DNA of 10,672 bases from Desulfobacterales bacterium (lineage in GTDB: Bacteria; Desulfobacterota; Desulfobacteria; Desulfobacterales; JAUCGF01), in assembly GCA_029940345.1 (NCBI GenBank), contig JAOZRC010000124.1, positions 1 through 10,672 of the forward strand, read 5' to 3'. Below are positions 1 through 10,672 of the stretch, piece after piece. The translations under genes and the position numbers were made by a program. The notes below the pieces were generated by a model. It saw only the letters and a program-made list of their open reading frames with translations, was not told where the DNA came from and ran no database searches. Position 1 is the first letter of the stretch; every line of letters starts with the position of its first letter.

Positions 1-370
1 CCACCATAAGTGTCAATCCTCCCCAAGGGGCTGCACCAGGGTCTTTTATAATGCCAAATGCTACAACATTATTCGCATCGTTGTAAAACTGAAAAATAAA
101 TTTATAACCTGTACCACTACCAAAAGACCCGTCATCACCGCCACTAAGTCCGGCTTGCAGCCATCCCTCGGTAGGCAGTAAAGACGTCATCGTTGCTCCG
201 CCCACATAGTTGAAAGCCCCGGTGCCCCATGCTCCGTCCGAGGCCCGCACGCCGTGTACATAAAAACCATTTAGACTTTGTGATACAGTCAATTCAGCAC
301 TTGCGACAGGTGCTAATAAAAACATCGCAATAGTAATTGTGAATACAACCGATAACACTTTTCTTCTCAT
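1..370 (-). CDS. Exported protein of unknown function, 5' part only
   Basis: This is the first 123 codons of a minus-strand gene that leaves the window at its left edge, so the C-terminus is unseen. It starts at ATG 368-370, with a strong AGGAGG Shine-Dalgarno 7-8 nt upstream. The N-terminus is a classic Sec signal peptide: MRRK, then a hydrophobic stretch (about residues 5-20), then a likely signal peptidase I site after the ASA at about residues 23-25. The mature part is rich in Gly, Ala and aromatic residues (motifs such as GAWGTGAFNYVGG and DDGSFGSGTGYKF) and has no cysteine. This suggests a beta-rich secreted or surface protein, perhaps a lectin-like or PEP-CTERM-type sorted protein, but the sorting tail would lie outside the window. 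I do not recognise the family. Export is well supported; function is unknown. Confidence 0.8.
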   Translation of the reverse strand, partial: MRRKVLSVVFTITIAMFLLAPVASAELTVSQSLNGFYVHGVRASDGAWGTGAFNYVGGATMTSLLPTEGWLQAGLSGGDDGSFGSGTGYKFIFQFYNDANNVVAFGIIKDPGAAPWGGLTLMV

Positions 371-435
371 CTTAATACCTCCTTTAGTCATTCATTCGTT
401 AATAATTTGGTATCGAACTCACGCTAAGACAGAGT

Positions 436-463
436 TTTATGGCACTTAATCTCAGCTTTTCAA
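436..463 (-). promoter_or_regulatory. Candidate sigma70 promoter for the exported protein
   Basis: On the minus strand TTGAAA (458-463) is followed after 16 nt by CATAAA (436-441). Transcription would start near position 429, giving a leader of about 60 nt before the ATG of the exported-protein gene. The match is fair rather than strong. Confidence 0.3.
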
Positions 464-629
464 AGATTTTTTCCTTTCGTCAGACCTCGTAAATATTGCA
501 TTTTGATTTAAGGACATTAGAAATGATATCAACTGCTTATGGTAAAAGTGGACAATCAGGAAGTCACTTTAACGACAATTTTGCTGTAGGAATCAGCACC
601 TGCGGCGATGACTAACTGTGCAATGGATC

Positions 630-648
630 GTAGGGGCAGGCTCCTGCG
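630..648 (+). repeat. REP-like GTAG hairpin
   Basis: The sequence begins with GTAG and folds into the perfect short hairpin GCAGG-CT-CCTGC (stem arms 636-640 and 643-647). A GTAG head followed by an imperfect palindrome is the known layout of REP sequences mobilised by RAYT (Y1-type) transposases. No RAYT gene is in the window, so the assignment rests on shape only. Confidence 0.5.
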
Positions 649-734
649 AAAAAGGCCATTTCGTTGTCCAAAATATTGCCCTTTTTCAACTTCAGTTTAC
701 GATGTCTGGAATCAGAATATAATAGCCCGTTTTT

Positions 735-760
735 AGAATGGTCAGAATTCTGTTCATTCT
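735..760. repeat. Extended palindrome downstream of the membrane protein gene
   Basis: A perfect 10-bp palindrome, CAGAATTCTG (743-752), is flanked by AGAATG (735-740) and CATTCT (755-760), which also pair. Only the 2-bp spacers at 741-742 and 753-754 fail to match. It lies about 30 bp beyond the stop codon of the minus-strand membrane protein gene. No U-run follows on the minus strand, so it is not a standard intrinsic terminator, though it could act as a 3' stem or a protein-binding site. Confidence 0.45.
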
Positions 761-761
761 T

Positions 762-779
762 TAATCCTGTTAATCCTGA
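762..779 (+). repeat. Tandem 9-nt repeat (TAATCCTGT)2
   Basis: TAATCCTGT (762-770) is followed directly by TAATCCTGA (771-779). From memory, short arrays of this AATCCTGTT-like unit are common in intergenic DNA of Desulfobacterales and some other bacteria. With only two copies it is a minor feature. Confidence 0.4.
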
Positions 780-791
780 TTCAGACAGTTT

Positions 792-2222
792 TTACTTTTC
801 AGCTTTAGCGCCTGTTTTTGTGTCAGCCGTCAGTTTATCGCTATCAGATTTTGAATCAACCTGTTTTTCATCTTTTGAGGCTGCGGAATCCGTAATATCC
901 GTTTTTTCTTCCGCTGTGTCAGATTTTACAGGTGCCTGGTCTTTTTCGCCTTTTTCAGATTCAGCTTTTTCAGGTGATTGTTCCGTCGGTTTGGCTTCTT
1001 CCGCCAATGTCTTTTCATTTTCCGTATCACCGGTGGGAGATTCTTCCAATTCGGCGGCTACAAGCCGTACGGTTTCAAGTTGCCGCTGAATACGTTCTTC
1101 CTGATTCTTATTGGTCGCCAGAAGCATCGCTTTTTCCAGATATTCGGCGGCGGTTTTCAAATCAATCGCAGTTCCTTTAAACAGCGCAATATCGGCTTTA
1201 TAGAGAAGAAAAAGTTGATTCAGTCCATTCAGCCGGCTAATTGCGGCTTTGCGATTTTGGTCACTATCGGCATATTGCAACGCCAGATTTAGCAGGGTGT
1301 CCATCTTTTTGACATCCGGTATGCCTGATTGCTCGATAACAATATCCGCCGCTTTCAAAAAATGATCGAAAATAAAATTGAAAATTTCAGCGCGTGCATA
1401 GACTTTTTTTACTGGCGACGGTGCCTGAACACCCGGGATAGCGATTAGCAATTTTGTACCTAAAGGCGAAAAGCAGCCTTGCCACACCTCAACCGCTGCG
1501 GGTGTGGATTTCACATAATAGTTGTGTGTATTAATAACGCTTGCGCTGATGATAAGCGCGTAAATAAACAATATAGCTGCAACAGAAATAATAATTCCTT
1601 TTTTCGCTGCTGTTGATGTTTCCATTTCAACCTCCGATCCATAGTTTATAACCACCTTAGAAGACTCAGGCCTGTCAAGGGCTGGTTGGGGTGGGTCATT
1701 TTTTCCGTCAATTGTTTCTGTGTTTGTCAAATGGGTTGCTTCTGATTCATCTTTAGCGTTGCTTTTTGATGTCTCAGCGCCTGTCGTGTTCTTTTTGATG
1801 TTATCCATCATTTTTTCAGCATCATTTTCATTTGCATCCGGTTTGATAACGCCTGTTTCAATTGGTTTGCTATCTCCCTTTTGATTTGTAAGCGGCTCAT
1901 GATTGTCCGTTTCCACGGTTTCAGGTTGGCGCTTTATTTTTGCCGGCGTGCTGTTACCTGTTTTTTCTGCTGATGATTTGACGTTTATATCTGTTTTAGC
2001 GGCAGTCAATTTTTTTTCTGACTTTACCGCCGTTGCCTTTTCAGATAGATCTGTTTCAGGTTGGTTGGCATGATTCACCGCTTTTACGGCGATCATTTTT
2101 TCAGCATCAGCCGCTGCAACCGCCCTTTTTCCAGATTTAGCTGCCAATTTGGGTTTGGGGTTGCCTAATCCGGTTTTTCTTTTTTTTTTGGAAGTGGATC
2201 TGAACAAAGTTTTTTTTCCCAT
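792..2222 (-). CDS. Single-pass membrane protein with long disordered tails, unknown function
   Basis: This 476-residue protein starts at ATG 2220-2222, with an AAGAGG Shine-Dalgarno 5 nt upstream. Residues 1-200 are low-complexity and rich in Lys, Ala, Thr and Glu, with a strongly basic head (KKK/KRK in residues 11-17). One transmembrane helix spans about 209-231. The next segment (about 232-395) is the only part with folded character: mostly helical, TPR-like in feel, including NLALQYADSDQNRKAAISRL near 312-330 and a later helix pair. Residues 396-476 form a second acidic, Lys/Glu/Ser/Asp-rich tail. The positive-inside rule puts the N-terminus in the cytoplasm and the helical domain plus acidic tail outside. 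It ends a series of four minus-strand genes. I do not recognise the family; a scaffold or envelope-anchoring role would be speculation. The low-complexity tails probably evolve fast. Confidence 0.85.
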   Translation of the reverse strand: MGKKTLFRSTSKKKRKTGLGNPKPKLAAKSGKRAVAAADAEKMIAVKAVNHANQPETDLSEKATAVKSEKKLTAAKTDINVKSSAEKTGNSTPAKIKRQPETVETDNHEPLTNQKGDSKPIETGVIKPDANENDAEKMMDNIKKNTTGAETSKSNAKDESEATHLTNTETIDGKNDPPQPALDRPESSKVVINYGSEVEMETSTAAKKGIIISVAAILFIYALIISASVINTHNYYVKSTPAAVEVWQGCFSPLGTKLLIAIPGVQAPSPVKKVYARAEIFNFIFDHFLKAADIVIEQSGIPDVKKMDTLLNLALQYADSDQNRKAAISRLNGLNQLFLLYKADIALFKGTAIDLKTAAEYLEKAMLLATNKNQEERIQRQLETVRLVAAELEESPTGDTENEKTLAEEAKPTEQSPEKAESEKGEKDQAPVKSDTAEEKTDITDSAASKDEKQVDSKSDSDKLTADTKTGAKAEK

Positions 2223-2277
2223 AGAAACCTCTTTGAATGAAATCTGATTATCAATAAATATATTTAAACAGTATGTT

Positions 2278-2306
2278 TGTATATCGAATCAATTTGTATT
2301 TGTAAA
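2278..2306 (-). promoter_or_regulatory. Candidate sigma70 promoter for the membrane protein gene
   Basis: On the minus strand TTTACA (2301-2306) and TATACA (2278-2283) are separated by exactly 17 nt. The start point would be near 2271, about 50 nt before the ATG. With the 96-bp gap to the previous gene, this suggests the membrane protein gene can be transcribed separately. Confidence 0.4.
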
Positions 2307-2318
2307 TGCTTTTACGCC

Positions 2319-2873
2319 TTAGGATTCAGATTTAAACATCTGAATAATTCCTCGGCTGGCACCTTGAGGAACAATCAGCCACAAACGTTTCAATCCGCCC
2401 GGAGGGATACGCTTTAAAGTATCTTTGAGCAAATTAACGAACCGTTGAATGTCAAAGGTGCCGAAAACCGCCCCTAAAAGCGGAAGAGCGACGGAATGCA
2501 AGTTGCGTGTTGCAGTTTCTCTGAAAATCAGGTCCAAAGCCCGGGAAATCCAATCTTCACGCCATGAAGTCTCCCGGTTCAGATCATGGACGATGGCAAG
2601 CAAACGTACGGGGCAGCCACTTTTTACCACCACGCTTCCCGGCGTAACCGGTAAAGTTTCAATAATCTTGGTCATAGTACGAATAATATGTTCAGACGGC
2701 ATGCGCACTGTTTTTTCGGCACTCAAGACCAGAAACGTGTCTTCTTCCGCGGCAATCGCATCAATGCTAAAAGGCTGCGCATGTTGCGGTGCGGCTACAA
2801 TGTGCACATATCCCCAAAAGGTTTCACTTTGCAGACCGCCTTGAATCACTTTTAATTTAGGCTTGGTTGGCAT
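2319..2873 (-). CDS. Macro-like domain protein (reduced form)
   Basis: I start this gene at ATG 2871-2873 (184 residues). The frame also opens at a TTG seven codons earlier, inside a heptanucleotide array, which I think is less likely. Neither start has a Shine-Dalgarno. Residues 76-170 resemble the second half of a macro domain: a GSVVV strand, an AIVHDLN strand with His96, a helix (RALDLIFRETATRN), the SVALPLLGAVFG loop (127-138) equivalent to the SIALPALGTG phosphate loop, then a helix and the final LKRLWLIV strand. The N-terminal macro hallmarks (GDIT, and the VNAAN loop that contacts ADP-ribose) are not visible. It may therefore bind a nucleotide ligand differently or have lost catalysis. 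It is soluble, with no signal peptide. Macro-like fold is my inference from pattern; ADP-ribose binding is not shown. Confidence 0.7.
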   Translation of the reverse strand: MPTKPKLKVIQGGLQSETFWGYVHIVAAPQHAQPFSIDAIAAEEDTFLVLSAEKTVRMPSEHIIRTMTKIIETLPVTPGSVVVKSGCPVRLLAIVHDLNRETSWREDWISRALDLIFRETATRNLHSVALPLLGAVFGTFDIQRFVNLLKDTLKRIPPGGLKRLWLIVPQGASRGIIQMFKSES

Positions 2874-2878
2874 GTTGT

Positions 2879-2899
2879 GAGTTTTAAGTTTCAAGTTTC
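2879..2899 (-). repeat. Heptanucleotide array ending 5 nt before an ATG
   Basis: Read on the minus strand there are three 7-mers, GAAACTT, GAAACTT and AAAACTC (2893-2899, 2886-2892, 2879-2885). They are followed by 5 nt and then the ATG of the macro-like gene. The array sits where a Shine-Dalgarno should be. It belongs to the same NNAACTT family as the arrays at 3015-3049 and 7286-7313. Confidence 0.6.
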
Positions 2900-3014
2900 A
2901 AATTATTTCATAACATGTTGTCCAAATCGGATATGGCATTGAAACTGAAAATTTTAGCTATTTTACAGTATTAATAATTTCAGTAACTTACAAAAACTTA
3001 TGACTGATGAGCTT

Positions 3015-3049
3015 ATAACTTTAAACTCGTAACTTAAAACTTGTAACTT
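3015..3049 (+). repeat. Five-copy heptanucleotide array
   Basis: On the plus strand five consecutive 7-mers run ATAACTT, TAAACTC, GTAACTT, AAAACTT, GTAACTT. The array lies just beyond the 3' end of the 313-residue protein gene. It overlaps an imperfect inverted repeat, CTTTAAACTCG (3019-3029) with CGAGTTAAAG (3051-3060), which could fold in the minus-strand transcript after that gene. The unit is shared with the arrays at 2879-2899 and 7286-7313. Confidence 0.6.
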
Positions 3050-3062
3050 TCGAGTTAAAGGT

Positions 3063-4004
3063 TCATTTTTGATAAATACCGTCAATATCACGCCAGAAAT
3101 CTCCATCCGGTGTTTTGACAATGATATACCAATCAGATTTTGTAACCATATTTTGCTTTTGTTTCAAAAATGCTTGAGCAATGATGCCATTGGGCGCCTC
3201 GTAGATCGAATAGAACTCGGTCTGTCCGGAATTCAACTGCGAATATTCCCTGATTTTGGTTACACGTTCAGATAACGTCATCCCGCGTTCGTACTTTAAA
3301 TTGAACTCCGTATCAGGCCGTTGTTCATTTTTAATCCGGCCATTATGCACTGCGAAGCTTTCCCTGGCGGCCTTCCAAAAAGGCAGGGTCAAGTGCCGGC
3401 CGCCAATGTAAGCTTCATATTTTCCATTTTCCAGACGGTAGTACCCAAAGGTAAGCGGTTCAGTGCAGATCAGGTTGCCGGTATCCTCCGCTTCATGGAT
3501 AAAATTCAGTCCCAACAAAGCATCACGAGCATCTTCACCGCTTGTGAACAGGTAACGAATATACGGTTGGAACTGTTGTTGCGCCTCTTTTTCAAATGGT
3601 GCGTTTTTAAAATTTTCAGAGTCCGCCTCAGTCATGCTCCGAATTCGGATTCCCAGGTTATCTTTTTCACAAAACCGATTTCGCACAATCTGATCCGGAG
3701 GTTGCAACCGTTGTCCCAGATCCATTTTAATATTTTCATAAGCACTTTTATATTTTGAGGCATTTTCACTCTCCGAAGCAATCGCAGTTGAATGGCTTTT
3801 GGCATCATCATGCCCTTTTTCAGACGAGCTGTCAGCTTCATCTGTATCTGCTTGAAAAGAATTATCCGATTTTTCTTTGTCTTTATCGGATTTCACGGAT
3901 GCACTTATTAAGGAAGCCGGGTTCTGCGATGATTCATATTGAAATGGGGCTGTTTTACTTTTCGGCTTTTTGGCTTTTCTTTTTAAAATATCGAACATAC
4001 CCAT
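3063..4004 (-). CDS. Hypothetical protein with charged disordered N-terminal region
   Basis: This 313-residue protein starts MGMFDILKRK at ATG 4002-4004, with an AGGAG Shine-Dalgarno 6 nt upstream. No signal peptide or transmembrane helix is visible. After a short amphipathic basic head, residues 20-90 are low-complexity and rich in Ser, Lys, Asp and Glu, hence likely disordered. Residues 90-313 look folded, with several aromatic-rich strands (LTFGYYRLENGKYEAYIGGRH, split here by position about 184-204; DWYIIVKTPDGDFWRDIDGIY at the C-terminus). The last part resembles a beta-rich binding domain, but I do not recognise the family. It follows the histidine kinase by 147 bp on the same strand and precedes the macro-like gene. 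Its layout (disordered charged head plus compact domain) echoes the 476-residue membrane protein in the same series. Confidence 0.85.
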   Translation of the reverse strand: MGMFDILKRKAKKPKSKTAPFQYESSQNPASLISASVKSDKDKEKSDNSFQADTDEADSSSEKGHDDAKSHSTAIASESENASKYKSAYENIKMDLGQRLQPPDQIVRNRFCEKDNLGIRIRSMTEADSENFKNAPFEKEAQQQFQPYIRYLFTSGEDARDALLGLNFIHEAEDTGNLICTEPLTFGYYRLENGKYEAYIGGRHLTLPFWKAARESFAVHNGRIKNEQRPDTEFNLKYERGMTLSERVTKIREYSQLNSGQTEFYSIYEAPNGIIAQAFLKQKQNMVTKSDWYIIVKTPDGDFWRDIDGIYQK

Positions 4005-4151
4005 GAATGGCTCCTATGGATGTTATTTAAGCACATGTTTGATAAGTCGTTCTTATTCGTTTGAAGCTAGTTGCTGACTTTTCAAACAGGCTCGAAGATA
4101 TGTCATCTGGCAGGTTATTTCCCGAAAATCTATATGATAGAACAAAAATGG

Positions 4152-5525
4152 CTATTCATCATTGAAGCGAACCGGTAGCTTAATTATAAAAACAGCTCCG
4201 CCTTGAGGTGAATTTTCAGCTTTGATAGTTCCGTGATGGTCTTCGATAATGCCAAAACTCACCGACAGGCCGACGCCAATGCCCATACGTTTTTTATTGG
4301 TAAAAAAAGGATCAAACAGATGCGCCATCGCTTCGGTTGCGATCCCAGGCCCGTTATCCGCAACCCTGATAATTATATGCCCATGGTCTGATAATGTTCG
4401 GATCGTTATTTGGCCGATAGTTCCGGTCGTATCCGCTTGGATTTGGGGGCGCTTACTTTCAGTCGCATCAGAAAATCCGCAAATCGACTCATTGGCATTA
4501 TTAATCAAATTTAACAAACATTGCGTTAACTGTTGAGGAGATGCGATTAAGATAGGAAGGTTCGGGGAGAGGTCCGAAATCAGCTTTATTTTGGCATTTT
4601 TCAATTGACTTTTCACCAATGACATCGTTTTTTCAATAATTTTATTAATGTTCACGGGCTGTTTTTTTTCTTGGGAAGGCCGATTGAGATCAAGCAATTT
4701 TTGAACGGTGTTGCGAATATTATGGACTGCGCCTTTGAATATCTCAAAGCTGCTTAGTAGTTCATGGTCAGTTTGGTATTCAGACATCAAGGTGGAAAGC
4801 AAAGTTGTAATTGCCTGGAGAGGGGAATTGATTTCGTGTGCGATGAAGGCGGCCAATTGCCCGGTGGCGGCCAGTCTGTCCGAACGAAGAAGTTGGCGTT
4901 GCAAAAGCTTACGGTCTTCAATCTCCTGGCTTAAACGGGAATTACTCTCAACTGACTCGGCCGTACGCGCCGTTACCCGCTGTTCCAGTTTGGCATTAGC
5001 CTGTAAAAGCGCTTTTTCCGCTTTTTCCCGTTCTTCGACTTCCTGATGCAACTGTTCACAGGTCAAAGTTAATAAGTGATTGCGTGCTTTCAGATCTTCT
5101 ATATAGCGTTCATTACTTTCCCGAACCTTGTCAGATATGGACCGCATGATTGAAAGCGAAATCGGATTGGACGCTTTTATCACCCGGTTGAAATCATCCC
5201 GGGTGATATATAGCAAATCAGATGGTTTGTGCGTCACTACCGTTGCACAACGCGGGTATTGATCAATCAGCGCCATCTCTCCGAATAATTGGCCGCGTCC
5301 ATAGGCCGCAACGAGATCCTGTTCAGGAGTGCCATAGTGTTTCCATATTTCCACACCACCTTTAATAATGATATAAAAGTTATTTCCGACCGAACCTTCG
5401 GAAATTACGATTTCACCGGCCAGATACCGTTTCTCCCGACAAACACTCTGAATCGCTTTGATATCGTCATCAGAGAGCATGTTGAAAAAAAATACTTTTT
5501 TTAAAATATCTTGATAACTGCTCAT
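4152..5525 (-). CDS. Soluble histidine kinase with N-terminal cyclic-nucleotide-binding domain
   Basis: This 457-residue cytoplasmic kinase has no membrane segment. Residues 10-118 form a CAP_ED/cNMP-binding domain with the phosphate-binding cassette FGEMALID..PRCATV (81-96; Glu83 and Arg92 present), so real ligand binding is plausible. Residues 130-212 are a long helical coiled coil that would carry the signal. The HisKA dimerisation helix follows, with phospho-acceptor His230 in AAFIAHEINSPLQ. The HATPase_c domain has an N box (NLINNANESI, from Asn339), G1 (DNGPGI, 390-395), F box (LFDPFFTNK) and G2 (GIGVGL, 415-420). All catalytic elements are intact. The gene starts at ATG 5523-5525 with only a weak Shine-Dalgarno (AGAAAG). 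It lies divergently from the roadblock/ODP/regulator cassette, whose response regulator has no other kinase nearby, so the two may be partners; that is inference. Confidence 0.95.
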   Translation of the reverse strand: MSSYQDILKKVFFFNMLSDDDIKAIQSVCREKRYLAGEIVISEGSVGNNFYIIIKGGVEIWKHYGTPEQDLVAAYGRGQLFGEMALIDQYPRCATVVTHKPSDLLYITRDDFNRVIKASNPISLSIMRSISDKVRESNERYIEDLKARNHLLTLTCEQLHQEVEEREKAEKALLQANAKLEQRVTARTAESVESNSRLSQEIEDRKLLQRQLLRSDRLAATGQLAAFIAHEINSPLQAITTLLSTLMSEYQTDHELLSSFEIFKGAVHNIRNTVQKLLDLNRPSQEKKQPVNINKIIEKTMSLVKSQLKNAKIKLISDLSPNLPILIASPQQLTQCLLNLINNANESICGFSDATESKRPQIQADTTGTIGQITIRTLSDHGHIIIRVADNGPGIATEAMAHLFDPFFTNKKRMGIGVGLSVSFGIIEDHHGTIKAENSPQGGAVFIIKLPVRFNDE

Positions 5526-5751
5526 GAATCGCTTTCTGTACTAAATAACGGCTGCCCGCATAAATTGTTGAATATTTGAAAGCCTATACCACCAAAGCTA
5601 ATTATGCCCGAACATATTAAGTTTAATGGTTTACCGGTATTGAAAAAATAGGGCTAATAGCCAGATGAAAAGTTCGTTAACCGGAACACTCCCATGCAGG
5701 AGGATGAAAAGGCGGGACGTTCATTTAAAGTTTAGGAACATAACATAAAGC

Positions 5752-5767
5752 GGGCTAAATTTAACCC
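5752..5767. promoter_or_regulatory. Near-perfect 16-bp palindrome, possible operator
   Basis: GGGCTAAATTTAACCC matches its own reverse complement at 14 of 16 positions. It sits in the divergent region about 70 bp upstream of the candidate plus-strand promoter. It could be a dimeric regulator site, but nothing identifies a regulator. Confidence 0.3.
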
Positions 5768-5836
5768 TTAACAATTGAACTGAATTGATAATTTTCTTTT
5801 TCTTTAGCACTCATTTAAACAATTGTCAAATTCCTC

Positions 5837-5865
5837 TTGAAATAGTATCTGTTAGTGTGTACGAT
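5837..5865 (+). promoter_or_regulatory. Candidate sigma70 promoter for the roadblock/ODP cassette
   Basis: TTGAAA (5837-5842) and TACGAT (5860-5865) are separated by exactly 17 nt. The transcript would begin near 5872, giving a leader of about 175 nt before the roadblock ATG. A second -10-like TATACT at 5940-5945 has no good -35 partner. Confidence 0.35.
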
Positions 5866-6048
5866 TGAATATTGATGAGCAGGGCTTATACGCTATTTGA
5901 AAAAGGCGTTGTGAATAAATCGCATCGTCGAATAATTACTATACTGGTCTGATTTTGATTTTTCCGGAATAGCGGTGTGCGAGATTCAGCTTGCAGGCGC
6001 AGCCTGGAAAAACCAATATCAGAATACTATGATTATCAGGAGGGATTC

Positions 6049-6417
6049 ATGTCACGCACGGATGAATTAAACACTGCACTTTCCGATCTTCAATCAAGCA
6101 GCGCCGACATTGAGGCTTGCGCTGTGGTTTCCGAAGATGGCCTGATCATTGCGAGTTCATTGCCCCAGGGACTCGAAGAGACGCGTATCGCAGCCATGAG
6201 CGCGGTGATGTTATCCATGGGCAGCCGAACCGCAATGGAATTGCAACGGGGTGAATTACAGCAGATTTTTGTTAAAGGGGAACACGGCTATATTATTATA
6301 ATGAATGCCGGAGATCATTCTGCCTTGCTGGCCATGACGCGTAAGGAAGCGAAACTAGGTCTTATTTTTCTTGACTTATCACGCGCGGCCGAAAAAGTTA
6401 AAAATATTTTATCTTAA
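6049..6417 (+). CDS. Roadblock/LC7 (MglB-like) protein
   Basis: I start this gene at ATG 6049 (122 residues) because a strong AGGAGGG (6038-6044) lies 4-5 nt upstream; the frame could extend back to a GTG at 5977 but without a ribosome site. The whole protein is one roadblock domain: a leading helix (TDELNTALSDLQ), strand ACAVVSEDGLIIAS, a long helix (TRIAAMSAVMLSMGSRTAMEL), strands LQQIFVKGEHGYIIIMNA and SALLAMTR, and a final helix ending KVKNILS. Roadblock proteins of this type form homodimers and act on small GTPases (MglB is the GAP of MglA in Myxococcus polarity control). No MglA-like GTPase is in the window. It is the first gene of the plus-strand cassette and is followed 26 bp later by the diiron protein gene. 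Confidence 0.92.
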   Translation: MSRTDELNTALSDLQSSSADIEACAVVSEDGLIIASSLPQGLEETRIAAMSAVMLSMGSRTAMELQRGELQQIFVKGEHGYIIIMNAGDHSALLAMTRKEAKLGLIFLDLSRAAEKVKNILS

Positions 6418-6443
6418 CACCTTACATTCTATGAGGTAACCCC

Positions 6444-7199
6444 ATGAAAACGTTGTTTGAAACCGGCAACCATAAAAATGTGATGGTCGACGATTTATCC
6501 ACCGGGACGATGGTGCAGTCCAATCAACATCTCATTGTCAACAGTGGTAAAGGTATGCTTCTTGATCCTGGCGGACACAAGATTTATTCCCAATTGCTGC
6601 CGCAAGTCGCCTCCGTTATTCAGATAAATAATTTACAGTACCTGTTTTTTTCCCATCAGGATCCGGATATTTTAGCGGCAGCGAACGGATGGCTGATGAC
6701 AACGGATGCAGATGCTTTTCTTTCAACGCTATGGATGCGCTTTATTCCTCACTTCGGTGTTGAGGAACTTGTCGTTAATCGGATCAAACCGATTCCGGAT
6801 GAAGGCATGACGGTAACCTTGGGGGGTGATCCGCTTATGATCATCCCCGCTCATTTCCTCCATTCGGCTGGTAATTTCCAGGTGTATGATCCGATTTCAA
6901 AAATTCTTTATTCTGGCGATTTGGGTGCATCATTGGGAAATCTATATGACACCGTTGATGACTTTGATGCGCATATCGACTACATGGAAGCATTTCATAA
7001 ACGGTATATGCCGGCAACCAAGGCGCTTAAAATGTGGGTGAGTACGGTTAGAACGATGGATATCGATATAATCGCTCCCCAGCATGGCGCTATTTTTCCC
7101 GACAAGGAGATGGTAAACCGTTTTATTGAATGGGTCGATACGCTTGTTTGCGGCATTGATCTGATGGAAGATTTTTTTTTCATTCCCAGTGATGACTGA
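6444..7199 (+). CDS. Stand-alone oxygen-binding diiron protein (ODP type, MBL fold)
   Basis: This 251-residue cytoplasmic protein starts at ATG 6444, with GAGGT 6 nt upstream. It is the metallo-beta-lactamase-fold half of a flavodiiron protein with no flavodoxin domain. The six expected iron ligands are visible: His71, Asp73 and Asp75 in SHQDPD, His140 in HSAGNF, Asp159 in YSGDLG, and His214 in PQHG. Compared with the flavodiiron HxExDH motif, Glu is replaced by Asp and the trailing His is absent (Ile76). Lacking flavin, it cannot by itself run the usual NADH-linked oxygen or NO reduction. Known stand-alone relatives (ODP of Treponema denticola) bind oxygen at the diiron site and feed a chemotaxis system. 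In this cassette, between a roadblock protein and a response regulator, a sensor role is the natural reading. Diiron and sensor function are inferred from the family. Confidence 0.9.
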   Translation: MKTLFETGNHKNVMVDDLSTGTMVQSNQHLIVNSGKGMLLDPGGHKIYSQLLPQVASVIQINNLQYLFFSHQDPDILAAANGWLMTTDADAFLSTLWMRFIPHFGVEELVVNRIKPIPDEGMTVTLGGDPLMIIPAHFLHSAGNFQVYDPISKILYSGDLGASLGNLYDTVDDFDAHIDYMEAFHKRYMPATKALKMWVSTVRTMDIDIIAPQHGAIFPDKEMVNRFIEWVDTLVCGIDLMEDFFFIPSDD

Positions 7200-7214
7200 T
7201 AATCAGGTGACTGC

Positions 7215-7237
7215 AACGTTTCGTTTAACGAAACGTT
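7215..7237. promoter_or_regulatory. Perfect 23-bp palindrome between the ODP and regulator genes
   Basis: AACGTTTCGTT and AACGAAACGTT pair perfectly over 11 bp around a single T (7226). It lies 16 bp after the ODP stop codon. The stem is AT-rich with a 1-nt centre and no clear U-run, which suits a dimeric DNA-binding protein better than an intrinsic terminator. Confidence 0.5.
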
Positions 7238-7285
7238 TCTAAAGCCATAAGTTCTTGTAAGTTACCGGTTGTTATGGAATAGCTT

Positions 7286-7313
7286 AAAACTTTACACTTA
7301 AAACTTTACACTT
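7286..7313 (+). repeat. Heptanucleotide array ending 5 nt before the regulator ATG
   Basis: Four 7-mers, AAAACTT, TACACTT, AAAACTT and TACACTT, form two exact 14-bp units. They end at 7313, and after 5 nt (GCTTT) the ATG of the response regulator begins. No Shine-Dalgarno is present. Unit, orientation and spacing match the array before the macro-like gene. Confidence 0.65.
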
Positions 7314-7318
7314 GCTTT

Positions 7319-8221
7319 ATGAGTGGCTATACGATTCTGATTGTTGATGACGACCCGTTACAGCATGAGATGCTTGGAGGCTACCTCGGACTTGCCGGTT
7401 TTAAAATCCTGAACGCCTTAAATGGTGTTGAGGCATTAGAGATGCTGGAAACCCAAAAGGCCGAAATTGTTTTATTAGATATTCAAATGCCGGTAATGGA
7501 TGGATTTAAAGCCCTTGAAGAGATACGTAAAAGATCGTCTTTAAAAGATATTCCTGTCATTATTTTAACCTGTCTGAATCAACAATATCTTAAAATAAAA
7601 GGCTTGGAACTCGGTGCGGACGATTATATCACCAAACCGTTTAATAGTGCTGAACTTCTGGCACGCATCAAAGCCGTATTGCGGCGCACAGAACGTTATC
7701 AAAGATCTGAAGGCGTTATGAATGGTGATCTTGCGGATATCAACCTGGTTGAACTGATGCAAAATATGGAAGTTGGCATTAAAACGGCTGTTATTCACCT
7801 GAAAGATATGAAAGGCGAAATTTTTATTGAAAAAGGCCAGCTCGTTTTCGCTCGTTATGGTGATTTCACCGATAAACAAGCCCTTTATCGCTTGTTTTTG
7901 ATTGAAAAAGGGGTTTTTTCGGTTGATTTCGATACATTGCCTGGCAAAATTACAAAAGCACCACGACCCATAATGAAAGAGCTAATGAATGTGCTTGCTT
8001 ATGTGGATGAAATTAAAGACATTCTTAAACACATCAGGGGCAAAAACAGCCCGCTGCAATTTGCTTATGATTTATCTGCTTTCCCTTCAATTGAAAAGTT
8101 TAAAACAAAATCGGTCGTCACTTTTTATGATATGTTAATTATGATGGAAGATGATTTAAAAGAAAACCTCAATGTATTGATAGCAGCTACTAAAAAAGGG
8201 AAGCTTAAAGCATTGAAATAA
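7319..8221 (+). CDS. Response regulator: receiver plus PATAN (DUF4388) domain
   Basis: This 300-residue protein begins at ATG 7319 with no Shine-Dalgarno. Residues 1-125 are a complete CheY-like receiver: acidic pocket Asp10-Asp12, phospho-acceptor Asp54 (VLLDIQMP), Thr84 and Lys106 (ITKPF), so phosphorylation should work. Residues 135-235 form a PATAN/DUF4388 domain (NGDLADINLVELMQNM, then KTAVIHLKDMKGEIFIEKGQ by position, then ARYGDFTDKQALYRLF). The rest is helical and unassigned. PATAN regulators such as cyanobacterial PatA and PixG do not bind DNA; they act through protein contacts, in phototaxis and pilus control. A signalling switch acting on polarity or motility machinery is likely here. 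The kinase upstream on the other strand is the only candidate partner in view. It follows the ODP gene by 119 bp and precedes the ATPase gene by 27 bp. Confidence 0.93.
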   Translation: MSGYTILIVDDDPLQHEMLGGYLGLAGFKILNALNGVEALEMLETQKAEIVLLDIQMPVMDGFKALEEIRKRSSLKDIPVIILTCLNQQYLKIKGLELGADDYITKPFNSAELLARIKAVLRRTERYQRSEGVMNGDLADINLVELMQNMEVGIKTAVIHLKDMKGEIFIEKGQLVFARYGDFTDKQALYRLFLIEKGVFSVDFDTLPGKITKAPRPIMKELMNVLAYVDEIKDILKHIRGKNSPLQFAYDLSAFPSIEKFKTKSVVTFYDMLIMMEDDLKENLNVLIAATKKGKLKALK

Positions 8222-8248
8222 CTGTTTTTCCTACGGATGGAGATAATG

Positions 8249-9058
8249 ATGAATAAAATTATTGCAATCGCCAGCCATAAAGGCGGTGTTGGTAAAACAA
8301 CAACGGTGCTGAATCTTGGCTTCAGTCTTAATCAACTGGGTCAAAAGGTTATGATTATAGATGGCGATCCTCAAGGAGGGATCGCGGTTGCCAGCAATTT
8401 AAAAAAACGTACGAACTTAGGTATTATCAATCTTATTAAAAATGATGCCAGTCCGAAGGATGTTATTATTCCGACCAGGGACAAAACCATGTCTGTGGTC
8501 GGTATCGGAGCAATCGAACCGGAAGATGTGCTTTTTATGGAAAAAGAAGCATTGCGAGGCAACCTAGGACGCATTATCCAATCTATCTCCAAAGGGTTTG
8601 ATTATATTCTATTAGATTCACCCGCCGGCTTAGGAGGTATTGTAACGGCTCTTTTGACAGTGAGCCATAGCATCATTATTCCGATTAACTGTCGTAGCAT
8701 CGTTGTAAAAACAATCCCCAGTTTCCTGAAACTGATCAATCGGGTTCGGGATAAACTCAATCCGTCTCTGCGCATCGAGGGTATGCTGATAAATATGTTT
8801 ACCGGAAATAAAACATCGGAGACAGAAGTTTACAACGAAATTATGAAACAGTTCCCCCCTACGGTATTTTTTAACACGCTGATACCTTTTGATGAGAAGG
8901 TTGAACAGGCCAGTATAAAGGCGATTCCCGTGGGTTTGCTGCCCGAGGCGCAAAACATCGCTCGCGCTTATATTGATTTGGCGACCGAATTAAAAATAAG
9001 GGAAATTCAGAAAAATATGGGAGGTGTTGGCGATGAATACGCTGAAGGACTCTTCTGA
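8249..9058 (+). CDS. ParA/MinD-family ATPase
   Basis: I start this gene at ATG 8249 (269 residues) because GGAG (8239-8242) is 6 nt upstream; ATGs at 8237 and 8246 are in frame but badly placed. The deviant Walker A KGGVGKTT spans residues 11-18 with signature Lys11 and catalytic Lys16. The switch I/A' motif MIIDGDPQGG (Asp38, Asp40) and Walker B DYILLDSPAG (Asp123) are present, so ATP-driven dimerisation should be intact. A C-terminal amphipathic MinD-type membrane helix is not obvious; the tail is charged and ends GDEYAEGLF. No parB or parS-like neighbour is seen, which argues against plasmid or chromosome partition. Orphan ParA proteins next to signalling genes often position chemosensory arrays or polar complexes, and that is my inferred role here. 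It overlaps the next gene by 26 bp, indicating translational coupling. Confidence 0.93.
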   Translation: MNKIIAIASHKGGVGKTTTVLNLGFSLNQLGQKVMIIDGDPQGGIAVASNLKKRTNLGIINLIKNDASPKDVIIPTRDKTMSVVGIGAIEPEDVLFMEKEALRGNLGRIIQSISKGFDYILLDSPAGLGGIVTALLTVSHSIIIPINCRSIVVKTIPSFLKLINRVRDKLNPSLRIEGMLINMFTGNKTSETEVYNEIMKQFPPTVFFNTLIPFDEKVEQASIKAIPVGLLPEAQNIARAYIDLATELKIREIQKNMGGVGDEYAEGLF

Positions 9059-9629
9059 GATTTATGAAGCCGTTACGCTTCTTGGGAATCTGATCGATCA
9101 GGCCGCGGTGGCGACGCCTTATTACCATCAACTGCCTGCATCGACAATTCCCCAACAATATGCTGACGTACCAAAAATGCGGGTGCCCCAATCGGCTCCG
9201 ATAGCGTCAACACAGCCCGTTTATACGACTCCGGAACCAATGAGCGATGAGCCGCTTTACCGAGGCGATTTGTTGGAAAACACCGTTGTGGCCATGTGCA
9301 AGCGGGGCGGATTCAGCGGGGCTGTGGTTGCGGATTCCGATGGCCTCTCTTTAGCTGTTTTTAATAGTCCGGTGGATGAAGATGCTTTAGCCGCCTTTAC
9401 GGTTGTGCTAGGGGATGCCTTGGAAAAAGCCGGCAAAGTACTCAATCAACAAGATGCCAGCTATATCTCCATGGACATCAATTATACCGATAAAGTTGTA
9501 CTGCGCCGCTTTTTGCTTGATGATGAAAGCCCGTTTTACATGATGGTGATCTGTCGGCAGGAAATAGACGAAAAAGATGAGGTGGAACTTTCTATTGATC
9601 AGATCAGAACTATTTTGAAAGGCAAATAG
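9033..9629 (+). CDS. Roadblock/LC7 protein with N-terminal extension
   Basis: I start this gene at ATG 9033 (198 residues), 8 nt after GGGAGG (9019-9024), inside the end of the ATPase gene. The frame also opens at a GTG at 9024, which overlaps that ribosome site and is less likely. Residues 1-25 form a predicted helix (SSEIYEAVTLLGNLIDQAA). Residues 26-75 are a Pro/Ala/Thr-rich flexible linker. Residues 80-195 are a divergent roadblock domain: LLENTVVAMCKRGGFSGAVV, then a DGLSLAVF strand, helix ALAAFTVVLGDALEKAGKVL, strands YISMDINYTDKVVLRRFL and PFYMMVICRQ, and final helix SIDQIRTILK. The short N-terminal helix could tether it to the coupled ParA protein, much as short peptides from cargo adaptors stimulate ParA ATPases. 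That link is inference from coupling and layout. Confidence 0.88.
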   Translation: MNTLKDSSEIYEAVTLLGNLIDQAAVATPYYHQLPASTIPQQYADVPKMRVPQSAPIASTQPVYTTPEPMSDEPLYRGDLLENTVVAMCKRGGFSGAVVADSDGLSLAVFNSPVDEDALAAFTVVLGDALEKAGKVLNQQDASYISMDINYTDKVVLRRFLLDDESPFYMMVICRQEIDEKDEVELSIDQIRTILKGK

Positions 9630-9722
9630 GAAACACTTTGATAAATGAAGGTACGCTGAATATCGTGTTTAAAAAAAATCGGAGTTCAATGCAGGCTGGG
9701 AAACGCATGCGGCTATGAACGA

Positions 9723-9741
9723 CGCGGGACAGCTTCCCGCG
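9723..9741. repeat. GC-rich REP-like hairpin flanked by direct repeats
   Basis: CGCGGGA (9723-9729) and TCCCGCG (9735-9741) pair perfectly over 7 bp around the loop CAGCT. CATGCGGCT occurs 9 bp before the stem and 12 bp after it. It may end transcription from both converging genes, though no T-run follows. Confidence 0.5.
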
Positions 9742-9769
9742 CCACACACTCACATGCGGCTGCGATCAT

Positions 9770-9793
9770 GTAGGGCGGAAAGCCGTTCCGCTC
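9770..9793 (+). repeat. REP-like GTAG hairpin
   Basis: The element begins with GTAG (9770-9773) and has a perfect 6-bp stem, GCGGAA/TTCCGC (stem arms starting at 9776-9777 offset by the G run and ending at 9791), with the 5-nt loop AGCCG. It shares the GTAG head with the hairpin at 630-648 but not the stem sequence. Confidence 0.5.
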
Positions 9794-9798
9794 AGAGG

Positions 9799-9817
9799 GG
9801 GGAGTAAACGGTTACAT
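9799..9817 (+). repeat. Left copy of a 19-bp inverted repeat around the feo genes
   Basis: GGGGAGTAAACGGTTACAT here matches the reverse complement of 10584-10602 at 18 of 19 positions. The repeat overlaps the TAA stop codon of the Cys-rich peptide gene (9812-9814), so the last codons of that gene may come from the repeat. Confidence 0.5.
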
Positions 9818-9985
9818 TTTTTTGCCGCATTCGTCTGACAAATTTTGGGGGATGTTACAAGATGAGCAACCGCAATTACAGCTATTACGGTCTGAATGTA
9901 TCGTTTGCTGATATTTTTGATAAAAAAGTCGACCAAGATAGACAGCGGCGGCTCCGATTACAATAAAAACAATAAAATTTTCCAT
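9812..9985 (-). CDS. FeoB-associated Cys-rich membrane peptide
   Basis: I start this gene at ATG 9983-9985 (57 residues), 5 nt after GAGGTGA; a GTG three codons earlier overlaps that ribosome site. Residues 3-22 are a single transmembrane helix (VFIVIGAAAVYLG core). After a short basic stretch comes a cysteine cluster at residues 36, 38, 40 and 43 (CNCGCSSC), with a further Cys53. This is the pattern of the FeoB-associated Cys-rich membrane protein family, normally encoded right after feoB and thought to help ferrous iron uptake, perhaps by metal handling at the inner membrane. Here feoB is absent and feoA lies 59 bp upstream. Its stop codon lies inside an interspersed repeat. Confidence 0.82.
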   Translation of the reverse strand: MENFIVFIVIGAAAVYLGRLFYQKYQQTIHSDRNSCNCGCSSCNIPQNLSDECGKKM

Positions 9986-9990
9986 AAAAA

Positions 9991-10044
9991 TCACCTCACA
10001 AGCACTCCCATTGTATTTCCGACGAAAGCAATGGCAGCACCCTT
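9991..10044 (-). pseudogene. Possible feoB remnant between feoA and the Cys-rich gene
   Basis: Directly after the feoA stop codon, in the same frame, 17 codons stay open to a TGA at 9991-9993. They read KGAAIAFVGNTMGVLVR. IAFVGN resembles the start of the FeoB G1 motif (IALVGNPNSGKT), and the hydrophobic run could equally be a FeoB C-terminal tail. The position is exactly where feoB is expected. The run is very short, so chance is a serious alternative. Confidence 0.25.
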
Positions 10045-10281
10045 TTATTCATCCACTTCCACGTCAATGAAATCCGCTTCGCTGTTGCGTAACGTTAACG
10101 TGAACCCCATTACGCGCAAGGCCACCGGATCATATAGTGGCGCACGCCCCTGGATTTTAATCGGGGTTCCGGGCACCAGACCCATATCGCGAATTCTTTG
10201 ACCCAATTCACTATTGGTACGAATGGCTTTAATGACACCCGATTGGTTATCTCGCATTTGCCGCATGTTTAGTTTTAGCAT
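10045..10281 (-). CDS. feoA: FeoA-family ferrous iron transport accessory protein
   Basis: This 78-residue protein starts at ATG 10279-10281 with a weak Shine-Dalgarno (AAGGG, about 9 nt upstream). It is a complete small SH3-like FeoA domain: LGQRIRDMGLVPGTPIKIQG (26-45), APLYDPVALRVMG (47-59) and the terminal strand ADFIDVEVDE. FeoA is a cytosolic partner of the ferrous iron permease FeoB. Its length is normal for the family and no frameshift is visible. The usual feoB does not follow; instead the FeoB-associated Cys-rich peptide gene comes 59 bp later. It may serve a feoB elsewhere in the genome, or be left over from a deleted feoAB operon. The two genes share strand and are probably co-transcribed. 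Confidence 0.92.
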   Translation of the reverse strand: MLKLNMRQMRDNQSGVIKAIRTNSELGQRIRDMGLVPGTPIKIQGRAPLYDPVALRVMGFTLTLRNSEADFIDVEVDE

Positions 10282-10328
10282 ATTTTAAATCCCTTAACCA
10301 AATTTTTTCGCTTAAATATATTGAGTTT

Positions 10329-10355
10329 GGTATACGAAACATTTGCTGATGTCAA
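10329..10355 (-). promoter_or_regulatory. Candidate promoter for feoA
   Basis: On the minus strand a perfect TTGACA (10350-10355) is followed after 15 nt by TATACC (10329-10334). The spacer is shorter than ideal. It would give a leader of about 40 nt before the feoA ATG. Confidence 0.35.
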
Positions 10356-10409
10356 TAAAATATAACTATTATCCGAAATATTTCAACCTGTGCAATCGCA
10401 CTTTTTTTT

Positions 10410-10529
10410 GTAGGGTGGGCAAACGTTTTCGCACTCACCTGGTTTATAGATAATGATTATGCAAAGCCATAGACTTCGTTAACGGAACAAGCCTTTTGCC
10501 CACCTTTTAATAAAAACCGGTGGGCAAAG
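10410..10529. repeat. GTAGGGTGGGCAAA-type interspersed repeat
   Basis: The element begins GTAG, then GGTGGGCAAA (10414-10423). The same 10-mer recurs inverted at 10495-10504 and direct at 10519-10528. The last two form a perfect 10-bp stem with a 14-nt AT-rich loop, and weaker pairing (TTCGTTAA with TTAACGAA) extends outward. GTAGGGTGGGC repeats are widespread in proteobacterial intergenic DNA. No transposase is nearby. Confidence 0.55.
10449..10460. promoter_or_regulatory. Fur-like palindrome
   Basis: GATAATGATTAT contains the perfect palindrome ATAAT-G-ATTAT, the core of the classic Fur box half-sites. It lies about 170 bp upstream of the feoA start, further than usual, and inside the repeat element. 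A role in feo regulation is possible but unproven. Confidence 0.25.
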
Positions 10530-10583
10530 TCCGTTTCTTTTAACGAAATAATTTGCCAGGCCTGATCATCATTTACAAACAGG

Positions 10584-10602
10584 ATGTAACCGTTCACTCC
10601 CC
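10584..10602 (-). repeat. Right copy of the 19-bp inverted repeat around the feo genes
   Basis: ATGTAACCGTTCACTCCCC is the reverse complement, with one mismatch, of 9799-9817. The two copies face each other and enclose feoA, the Cys-rich gene and the REP-like material upstream. Confidence 0.5.
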
Positions 10603-10639
10603 ATTTAAAAGGATGTCGTTATTTTTATAAAAATGAATA

Positions 10640-10662
10640 ACCCCGCCGCAAGCGGACGGGGT
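10640..10662 (-). terminator. Terminator-like hairpin for a gene beyond the right edge
   Basis: On the minus strand ACCCCG pairs with CGGGGT and CCGC with GCGG, around a 2-4-nt tip with a single bulged base. It is followed by the T-rich TTATTCATTTTT. This suits the end of a leftward transcript from outside the window. It could instead be another dispersed hairpin repeat. Confidence 0.5.
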
Positions 10663-10672
10663 ATCGACAAAG

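Follow-up and report, generated by a model that had tools for sequence, protein, structure and literature searches.

Gene content of the locus

The window analysed here is the whole stretch of 10,672 nt at positions 1 to 10,672 of one contig (JAOZRC010000124.1) in the 6.05-Mb assembly GCA_029940345.1 of a Desulfobacterales bacterium. It carries five plus-strand genes in a row, encoding a roadblock protein (Robl1), a diiron oxygen-binding protein (ODP), a response regulator made up of a receiver and a PATAN domain (RR-PATAN), a ParA-type ATPase and a second roadblock protein (Robl2). The genes are separated by 26, 119 and 27 nt, and ParA and Robl2 overlap by 26 nt. This arrangement had been described in a first-pass annotation made from the sequence alone and was confirmed throughout, with Pfam families for the products and, for Robl2, with homologues and a structure model. 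The cassette is real and belongs to a conserved cluster, and it is a reduced member of a widespread, apparently unnamed signalling module. In our reading, to which we give a probability of roughly one half, it would be an oxygen-linked phosphorelay that acts on a roadblock-controlled ParA ATPase and perhaps steers type IV pili. The features are collected in Table 1. Promoter and terminator predictions (10 and 2 in the window, versus 10.9 and 4.3 expected from shuffles) were uninformative.

Table 1. Features of the window and their coordinates (aa, amino acids; cNMP, cyclic nucleoside monophosphate)
Feature	Position	Strand	Evidence and remarks
Robl1, roadblock/LC7, 122 aa	6049..6417	+	PF03259, E 3.7e-17; frequent neighbour of ODP
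ODP, diiron oxygen-binding protein family, 251 aa, proposed sensor	6444..7199	+	PF19583, E 2.9e-71
RR-PATAN, receiver + DUF4388/PATAN	7319..8221	+	PF00072, E 1.5e-29; PF14332, E 2.4e-12
ParA/MinD-type deviant Walker ATPase	8249..9058	+	AAA_31, E 3.3e-35; ATG at 8237 is an alternative start
Robl2, N-terminal helix, poorly ordered linker and roadblock domain, proposed ParA partner	9033..9629	+	AlphaFold2 model, match to MglB
ParA/Robl2 gene overlap, 26 nt in two frames	9033..9058	+	ParA ends in EGLF-stop; Robl2 starts with MNTLKDSSE
Divergent cNMP-kinase	4152-5525		Rejected as cognate kinase (see text)
Protein without Pfam match	2319-2894		Apparent counterpart in the sister species (locus L032), by eye
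Protein without Pfam match	3063-4004		As above
Protein without Pfam match	792-2222	-	As above

Conservation and distribution of the cluster

A search with ODP, in one genome per species, gave 278 relatives, and all locus counts rest on the best 80 loci, in which neighbouring genes were identified as stop-to-stop frames scored with profiles built from the window proteins and their matches in the same loci. At least 6 kb of downstream DNA is available for 54 of the 80, which form the denominator for downstream genes. In 61 of the 80 loci, Robl1 is no more than 1.5 kb away from ODP. Among the 54, Robl1 is found in 42, a kinase in 29, RR-PATAN in 22, ParA in 28 and Robl2 in 25, with ParA and Robl2 both near ODP in 24 and all four partners (Robl1, RR-PATAN, ParA and Robl2) near it in 20. 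Conserved synteny in related genomes had been set as a check by the first-pass annotation, and gene order is indeed shared across phyla: the 29 of the 80 loci that carry both ParA and Robl2 (the full loci) are labelled Thermodesulfobacteriota, Myxococcota, Nitrospirota, Pseudomonadota or not at all, many of them being metagenome bins. On a tree of ODP, all 29 fall together with the window in one group of 44 rows (with modest support, 86/84); of the loci in this group that are short of the full set, only L051, L057, L062 and L080 have 6 kb of downstream DNA, and L062 has Robl2 and a weak ParA.

A sample of 297 genomes of the phylum, scanned for Robl2 and ODP, gave Robl2 at E < 1e-60 in exactly four (the window's own, G000, plus G093, G151 and G326), which are exactly those with an ODP of at least 65% identity, the two genes lying 1.8-4.6 kb apart. 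The probability of this co-occurrence by random coincidence is 3e-9 if kinship is ignored. Apparently G093, G151 and G326 are the genomes of loci L037, L038 and L045 (they have the same PilB scores), so that the sample shows exclusivity and does not add new loci. Since four partner genes recur at 20 of 54 loci, and Robl2 goes with a close ODP in these four of 297 genomes, the arrangement is beyond chance. A patchy distribution across phyla would fit gene transfer, and many ODP loci are without ParA, as would be expected if unrelated signalling genes were kept together by chance or co-transferred without any joint function; given the shared order over large distances, the gene overlap and the several different fusions between the parts, we regard such a loose neighbourhood as very unlikely.

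Two further arrangements were seen around ODP. A second ODP-Robl1-RR-PATAN set is present in the window's own genome, on the 3-kb contig C814 (L121:157-2519), with ODP (57% identical to that of the window) preceding Robl1 and no ParA before the contig ends. Loci L089, L090, L093, L094, L095 and L099, most of them with two tandem ODP genes, adjoin members of a conserved family, the one in L095 being an M23 peptidase.

ParA and its proposed roadblock partner

At E <= 0.001 Pfam finds nothing in Robl2, and a loose scan gives Robl_LC7 at E 0.012, which is below the curated cut-off. Robl_LC7 is matched at E <= 0.1 by 18 of 28 aligned Robl2 homologues (best 1.3e-4), and the AlphaFold2 model of Robl2 (mean pLDDT 84.9) matches MglB (6hjm) with a Foldseek E of 3.5e-8 and a TM score of 0.82 by target length; Robl2 is therefore a roadblock protein despite the Pfam miss. 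The model has the roadblock order of helix, two strands, helix, three strands and helix, preceded by a helix (residues 8-25) and the poorly ordered linker. A collection of 5.8 billion proteins holds at least 134 relatives at E 0.001 among the best 8,000 candidates, and the precomputed Pfam column gives a roadblock domain for 2 of the 120 relatives listed.

The genes for ParA and Robl2 overlap in 25 of the 27 loci where this could be measured, with a median of 20 nt and a range of -25 to 29 nt, lengths that use the last possible start, so that the true overlaps may be longer. Both form a single gene in L047 and L059, and at least nine proteins (P0001-P0009 of a list of 120, P0001 being that of L059 itself) are likewise ParA-Robl2 fusions. 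Another fusion, in genome G301, lies beside a PATAN-roadblock protein and a 205-aa unknown protein with no close ODP, and G235 has a similar arrangement with weaker profile scores (46 bits for the Robl2 part). The ParA of L067 has a weak C-terminal roadblock match (probability 25%) and was not counted as a fusion. From this, Robl2 looks like ParA's own partner, a point that the first-pass annotation did not make. The N-terminal SE-I helix of Robl2 is absent from the junction in all 13 fusion proteins (L059 counted twice), which is expected if the helix tethers Robl2 to ParA and becomes superfluous once the two are fused. The conserved C-terminal tail of ParA (GLF) was considered as a docking motif but dropped: in the other frame its nucleotides code for the conserved DSSE of Robl2, and the conservation of one may simply follow from that of the other. 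The Robl2 helix extends past the overlap, which makes it the better docking candidate.

Fusions are also found between other parts of the cluster. L065, L081 and L082 encode Robl1 as one protein with PATAN, and in L070, L085 and L100 it is an AAA_22 ATPase that is joined to Robl1, so that roadblock, PATAN and P-loop ATPase have come together repeatedly. The AAA_22-roadblock fusion lies directly upstream of ODP in these last three loci, all of Pseudomonadota, which share with L066 and L069 an OmpA-family gene and another roadblock gene downstream. An ODP-free module consisting of a PATAN-roadblock fusion, a protein of ~205 aa (without Pfam match in L122) and an opposite-strand ParA-Robl2 fusion was seen at L122:3971-6776 and L125:5413-8080.

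Bacterial roadblock proteins are mainly known as partners of Ras-like GTPases. No such GTPase was detected in scans of ten proteins of the window and ten neighbour proteins. One is encoded elsewhere in the window's genome, on contig C110, with a roadblock gene of its own, and because of this separate pair Robl1 and Robl2 are not the obvious MglB of that GTPase.

The nearest solved relatives of the ATPase are ParA and Soj proteins, and the signature lysine of its deviant Walker A box is nearly invariant in an alignment of 30 sequences. The gene overlapping it encodes a roadblock protein, and the ten window proteins scanned include no ParB domain. The nearly invariant lysine would also fit ParA and Robl2 placing an ODP-containing oxygen-sensor complex, in the way that orphan ParA proteins serve chemoreceptor clusters or carboxysomes, and possible cargo genes adjoin ParA, as in other orphan systems. 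The family consensus is non-basic opposite two arginines of ParA 8ray, positions which we take to be the canonical nucleoid-binding sites; other basic residues could still serve, but travel across the nucleoid should not be taken for granted. With no chemoreceptor gene among the proteins scanned either, we consider it unlikely that positioning of the sensor is what the pair does.

The proposed oxygen input

The ODP match covers positions 1-194 of the 194 of PF19583, i.e. the whole metallo-lactamase domain, and the protein closely resembles solved oxygen-binding diiron proteins (PDB 6qrq, E 3.6e-71 over residues 3-245; 6qnm, E 5.9e-64). The motifs which we take to hold the iron ligands are kept almost throughout the 80 loci (H.D.D in 80, QHG in 80, H[FY].HS in 76 and [ST]GD in 77). 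Robl1, its frequent partner, has a mean column identity of 70% over 37 sequences. A protoglobin gene is present in 5 of the 80 loci, Pfam-confirmed for L065, L067 and L105, and four of these five lie outside the ParA + Robl2 group on the ODP tree or are without detected Robl2; protoglobin is absent from all 29 full loci. Oxygen is the likeliest candidate for the ODP signal.

An oxygen-defence island was rejected as the general neighbourhood of the cluster: in searches with single-sequence queries (E <= 1e-8), relatives of cydAB, rubrerythrin, desulfoferrodoxin and Rrf2 turned up only in L037 among the 80 loci, and a relative of Fur at L036 as well. In Desulfatibacillum alkenivorans (L123:470-15356) the cluster is seen among rubrerythrin, Fur-family, Rrf2 and flavodiiron genes, together with genes that are cydAB-like by eye.

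Response regulator, kinase and HD domains

Pfam found no DNA-binding domain in RR-PATAN beside the receiver and DUF4388, which agrees with its initial description as a non-DNA-binding response regulator. Its phospho-acceptor D54 is invariant in an alignment of 30 sequences, and in the AlphaFold2 model (mean pLDDT 89.2) residues 1-128 match solved receivers; these matches bear on the receiver only, the PATAN part being barely probed by the fold searches.

In the 29 full loci, RR-PATAN directly precedes ParA 25 times, a kinase stands between ODP and ParA 19 times, and a second receiver-PATAN-like protein follows 14 times. Four kinases of related clusters that were scanned with Pfam have a PAS-HisKA-HATPase architecture, all with HisKA. 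Those of L037 and L061 carry tandem HD domains, and the HD part is a separate gene in L106, L033, L036 and L038. The five genes are kept together, but they are the reduced version of a cluster to which many relatives add HD domains and a second response regulator besides the PAS kinase. The cassette of the window contains neither a kinase nor a second response regulator. The divergent cNMP-kinase of the window was considered as the cognate kinase, and this candidacy was dropped: the matching place in the sister species lacks it, and its N-terminal part has, besides the window copy, weak matches only in L097 and L102.

The HD domains raise the question of whether the module could instead sense oxygen and change cyclic di-GMP via HD-GYP, as part of a stress response in which ParA and Robl2 are an ATP-dependent scaffold for that enzyme and do not act on pili. 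All nine HD proteins chosen for inspection have tandem HD domains, the second of which carries HD...HHE...GYP in eight (GFP in the ninth). No such kinase or HD gene lies between ODP and RR-PATAN in the window, the sister species (L032), L046 or L048, which nevertheless keep ParA-Robl2, and the L044 kinase is without HD by Pfam. HD-GYP is therefore dispensable for the core, and a cyclic di-GMP function of this kind is improbable in our view.

Output

The leading candidate for the output, still unproven, is type IV pili, and the link to them is weak. PilB scores over the curated cut-off in 26 of 30 cluster bearers versus 170 of 293 non-bearers (p 0.0016, kinship ignored), and in 172 of the 297 phylum genomes, bearers included. 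In the sister species, an operon with GspH, PilW, another pilin-like protein, PilX and PilY1 is located ~5 kb beyond Robl2, past an opposite-strand gene. In cyanobacteria, PATAN domains have been reported to bind PilB, the pilus motor (PMC10519157). Flagella were rejected as the output, FliG being over the cut-off in 17 of the 30 bearers with no match in the genomes of the window and its sister. CheA, CheW and chemoreceptor genes were not found among the window proteins scanned, nor a chemoreceptor among the neighbour proteins scanned. No gene family of motility or chemotaxis was detected among the neighbour representatives scanned.

Discussion

If the oxygen-linked phosphorelay is correct, ODP would bind oxygen or report redox, and its state would be passed on together with its frequent partner Robl1. 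The receiver-PATAN regulator would then be phosphorylated, in many relatives, by a PAS histidine kinase, which often has tandem HD/HD-GYP domains; in the window this kinase would have to come from outside the cassette. The PATAN domain may relay the signal to the ParA-family ATPase, whose cycle would be set by the co-translated Robl2, much as MglB sets that of the GTPase MglA, and the ATP state of ParA-Robl2 would determine how a surface machine, most likely type IV pili, is assembled or placed.

Several observations weigh against this reading. ParA is missing from 26 of the 54 loci with enough DNA, and 4 of the 28 such loci that have it (L067, L091, L105 and L111) are without detected Robl2, while weaker Robl2 matches (E 1.6e-28 to 2.3e-11) occur in five more genomes, in which there is no close ODP. 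There is no kinase in the window, the divergent one being absent from the matching place in the sister species, and oxygen-defence neighbours (cydAB, rubrerythrin) occur in one of the 80 loci. With regard to the output, the excess of PilB is uncorrected for kinship and compares bearers from several phyla with a sample of one phylum, and below the cut-off some related ATPase is found in 30 of 30 bearers and 292 of 297 sampled genomes. A prepilin-like open reading frame is present in one of the 80 loci, that of the sister, and a stricter pattern gives none, both patterns covering the locus flanks only (at most 8 kb a side). The oxygen- or redox-responsive positioning or polarity module proposed at first is partly supported: the oxygen link has been strengthened by the close solved homologues, the kept motifs and the protoglobin genes, and positioning or polarity stays hypothetical, with a non-basic ParA consensus and a single pilin-like reading frame.

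The components resemble those of several known systems. The ODP of Treponema denticola (TDE2498, with TDE2496), a chemotaxis oxygen sensor, belongs to the same diiron family; it is coupled genetically to a chemoreceptor homologue and acts on CheA, whereas the window-type ODP occurs with roadblocks, PATAN regulators, ParA and often a PAS kinase. The MglA/MglB(/RomR) system of Myxococcus also combines an MglB-fold roadblock with a receiver protein and with a P-loop NTPase encoded alongside, but the NTPase of the cassette is a ParA ATPase and not a Ras-like GTPase. Receiver and PATAN are combined in the cyanobacterial phototaxis regulators PixG, PilG and TaxP2 as well, in which PATAN is N-terminal; in the cassette it follows the receiver, no CheA/CheW was found, and ParA and ODP are added. 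The orphan ParA positioning systems McdAB, ParC/ParP and PomXYZ share with the cassette a ParA with an adjacent, co-encoded partner; in the cassette, however, this partner is a roadblock protein, and the arginines at the putative nucleoid-binding positions are not conserved. The first-pass annotation knew of no named system that joins these families, and among the open-licence literature matches listed we found no paper naming the combination, judged by title and the start of the abstract. The components are known, and what is new is the pairing of ParA with a roadblock and its coupling to an oxygen-binding protein.

A broader generalisation, which we put forward tentatively as quite possible, is that roadblocks regulate ATPases of the ParA/MinD class and not only Ras-like GTPases. 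This would be a distinct ATP-driven switch in which the roadblock is activator or exchange factor of the ParA dimer and the input comes from a gas sensor (ODP or, in some loci, protoglobin), and which steers surface behaviour to or from oxygen; the AAA_22-roadblock protein of Pseudomonadota might then be a parallel solution with another ATPase. A ParA-roadblock pair that is conserved, and in places fused, suggests that one and the same fold controls two major classes of nucleotide switches, and the natural ParA-Robl2 fusions offer single-protein reagents for the direct study of the pairing. If true, anaerobes would be able to turn the binding of oxygen by a protein into a spatial or surface response with no need of chemoreceptor arrays.

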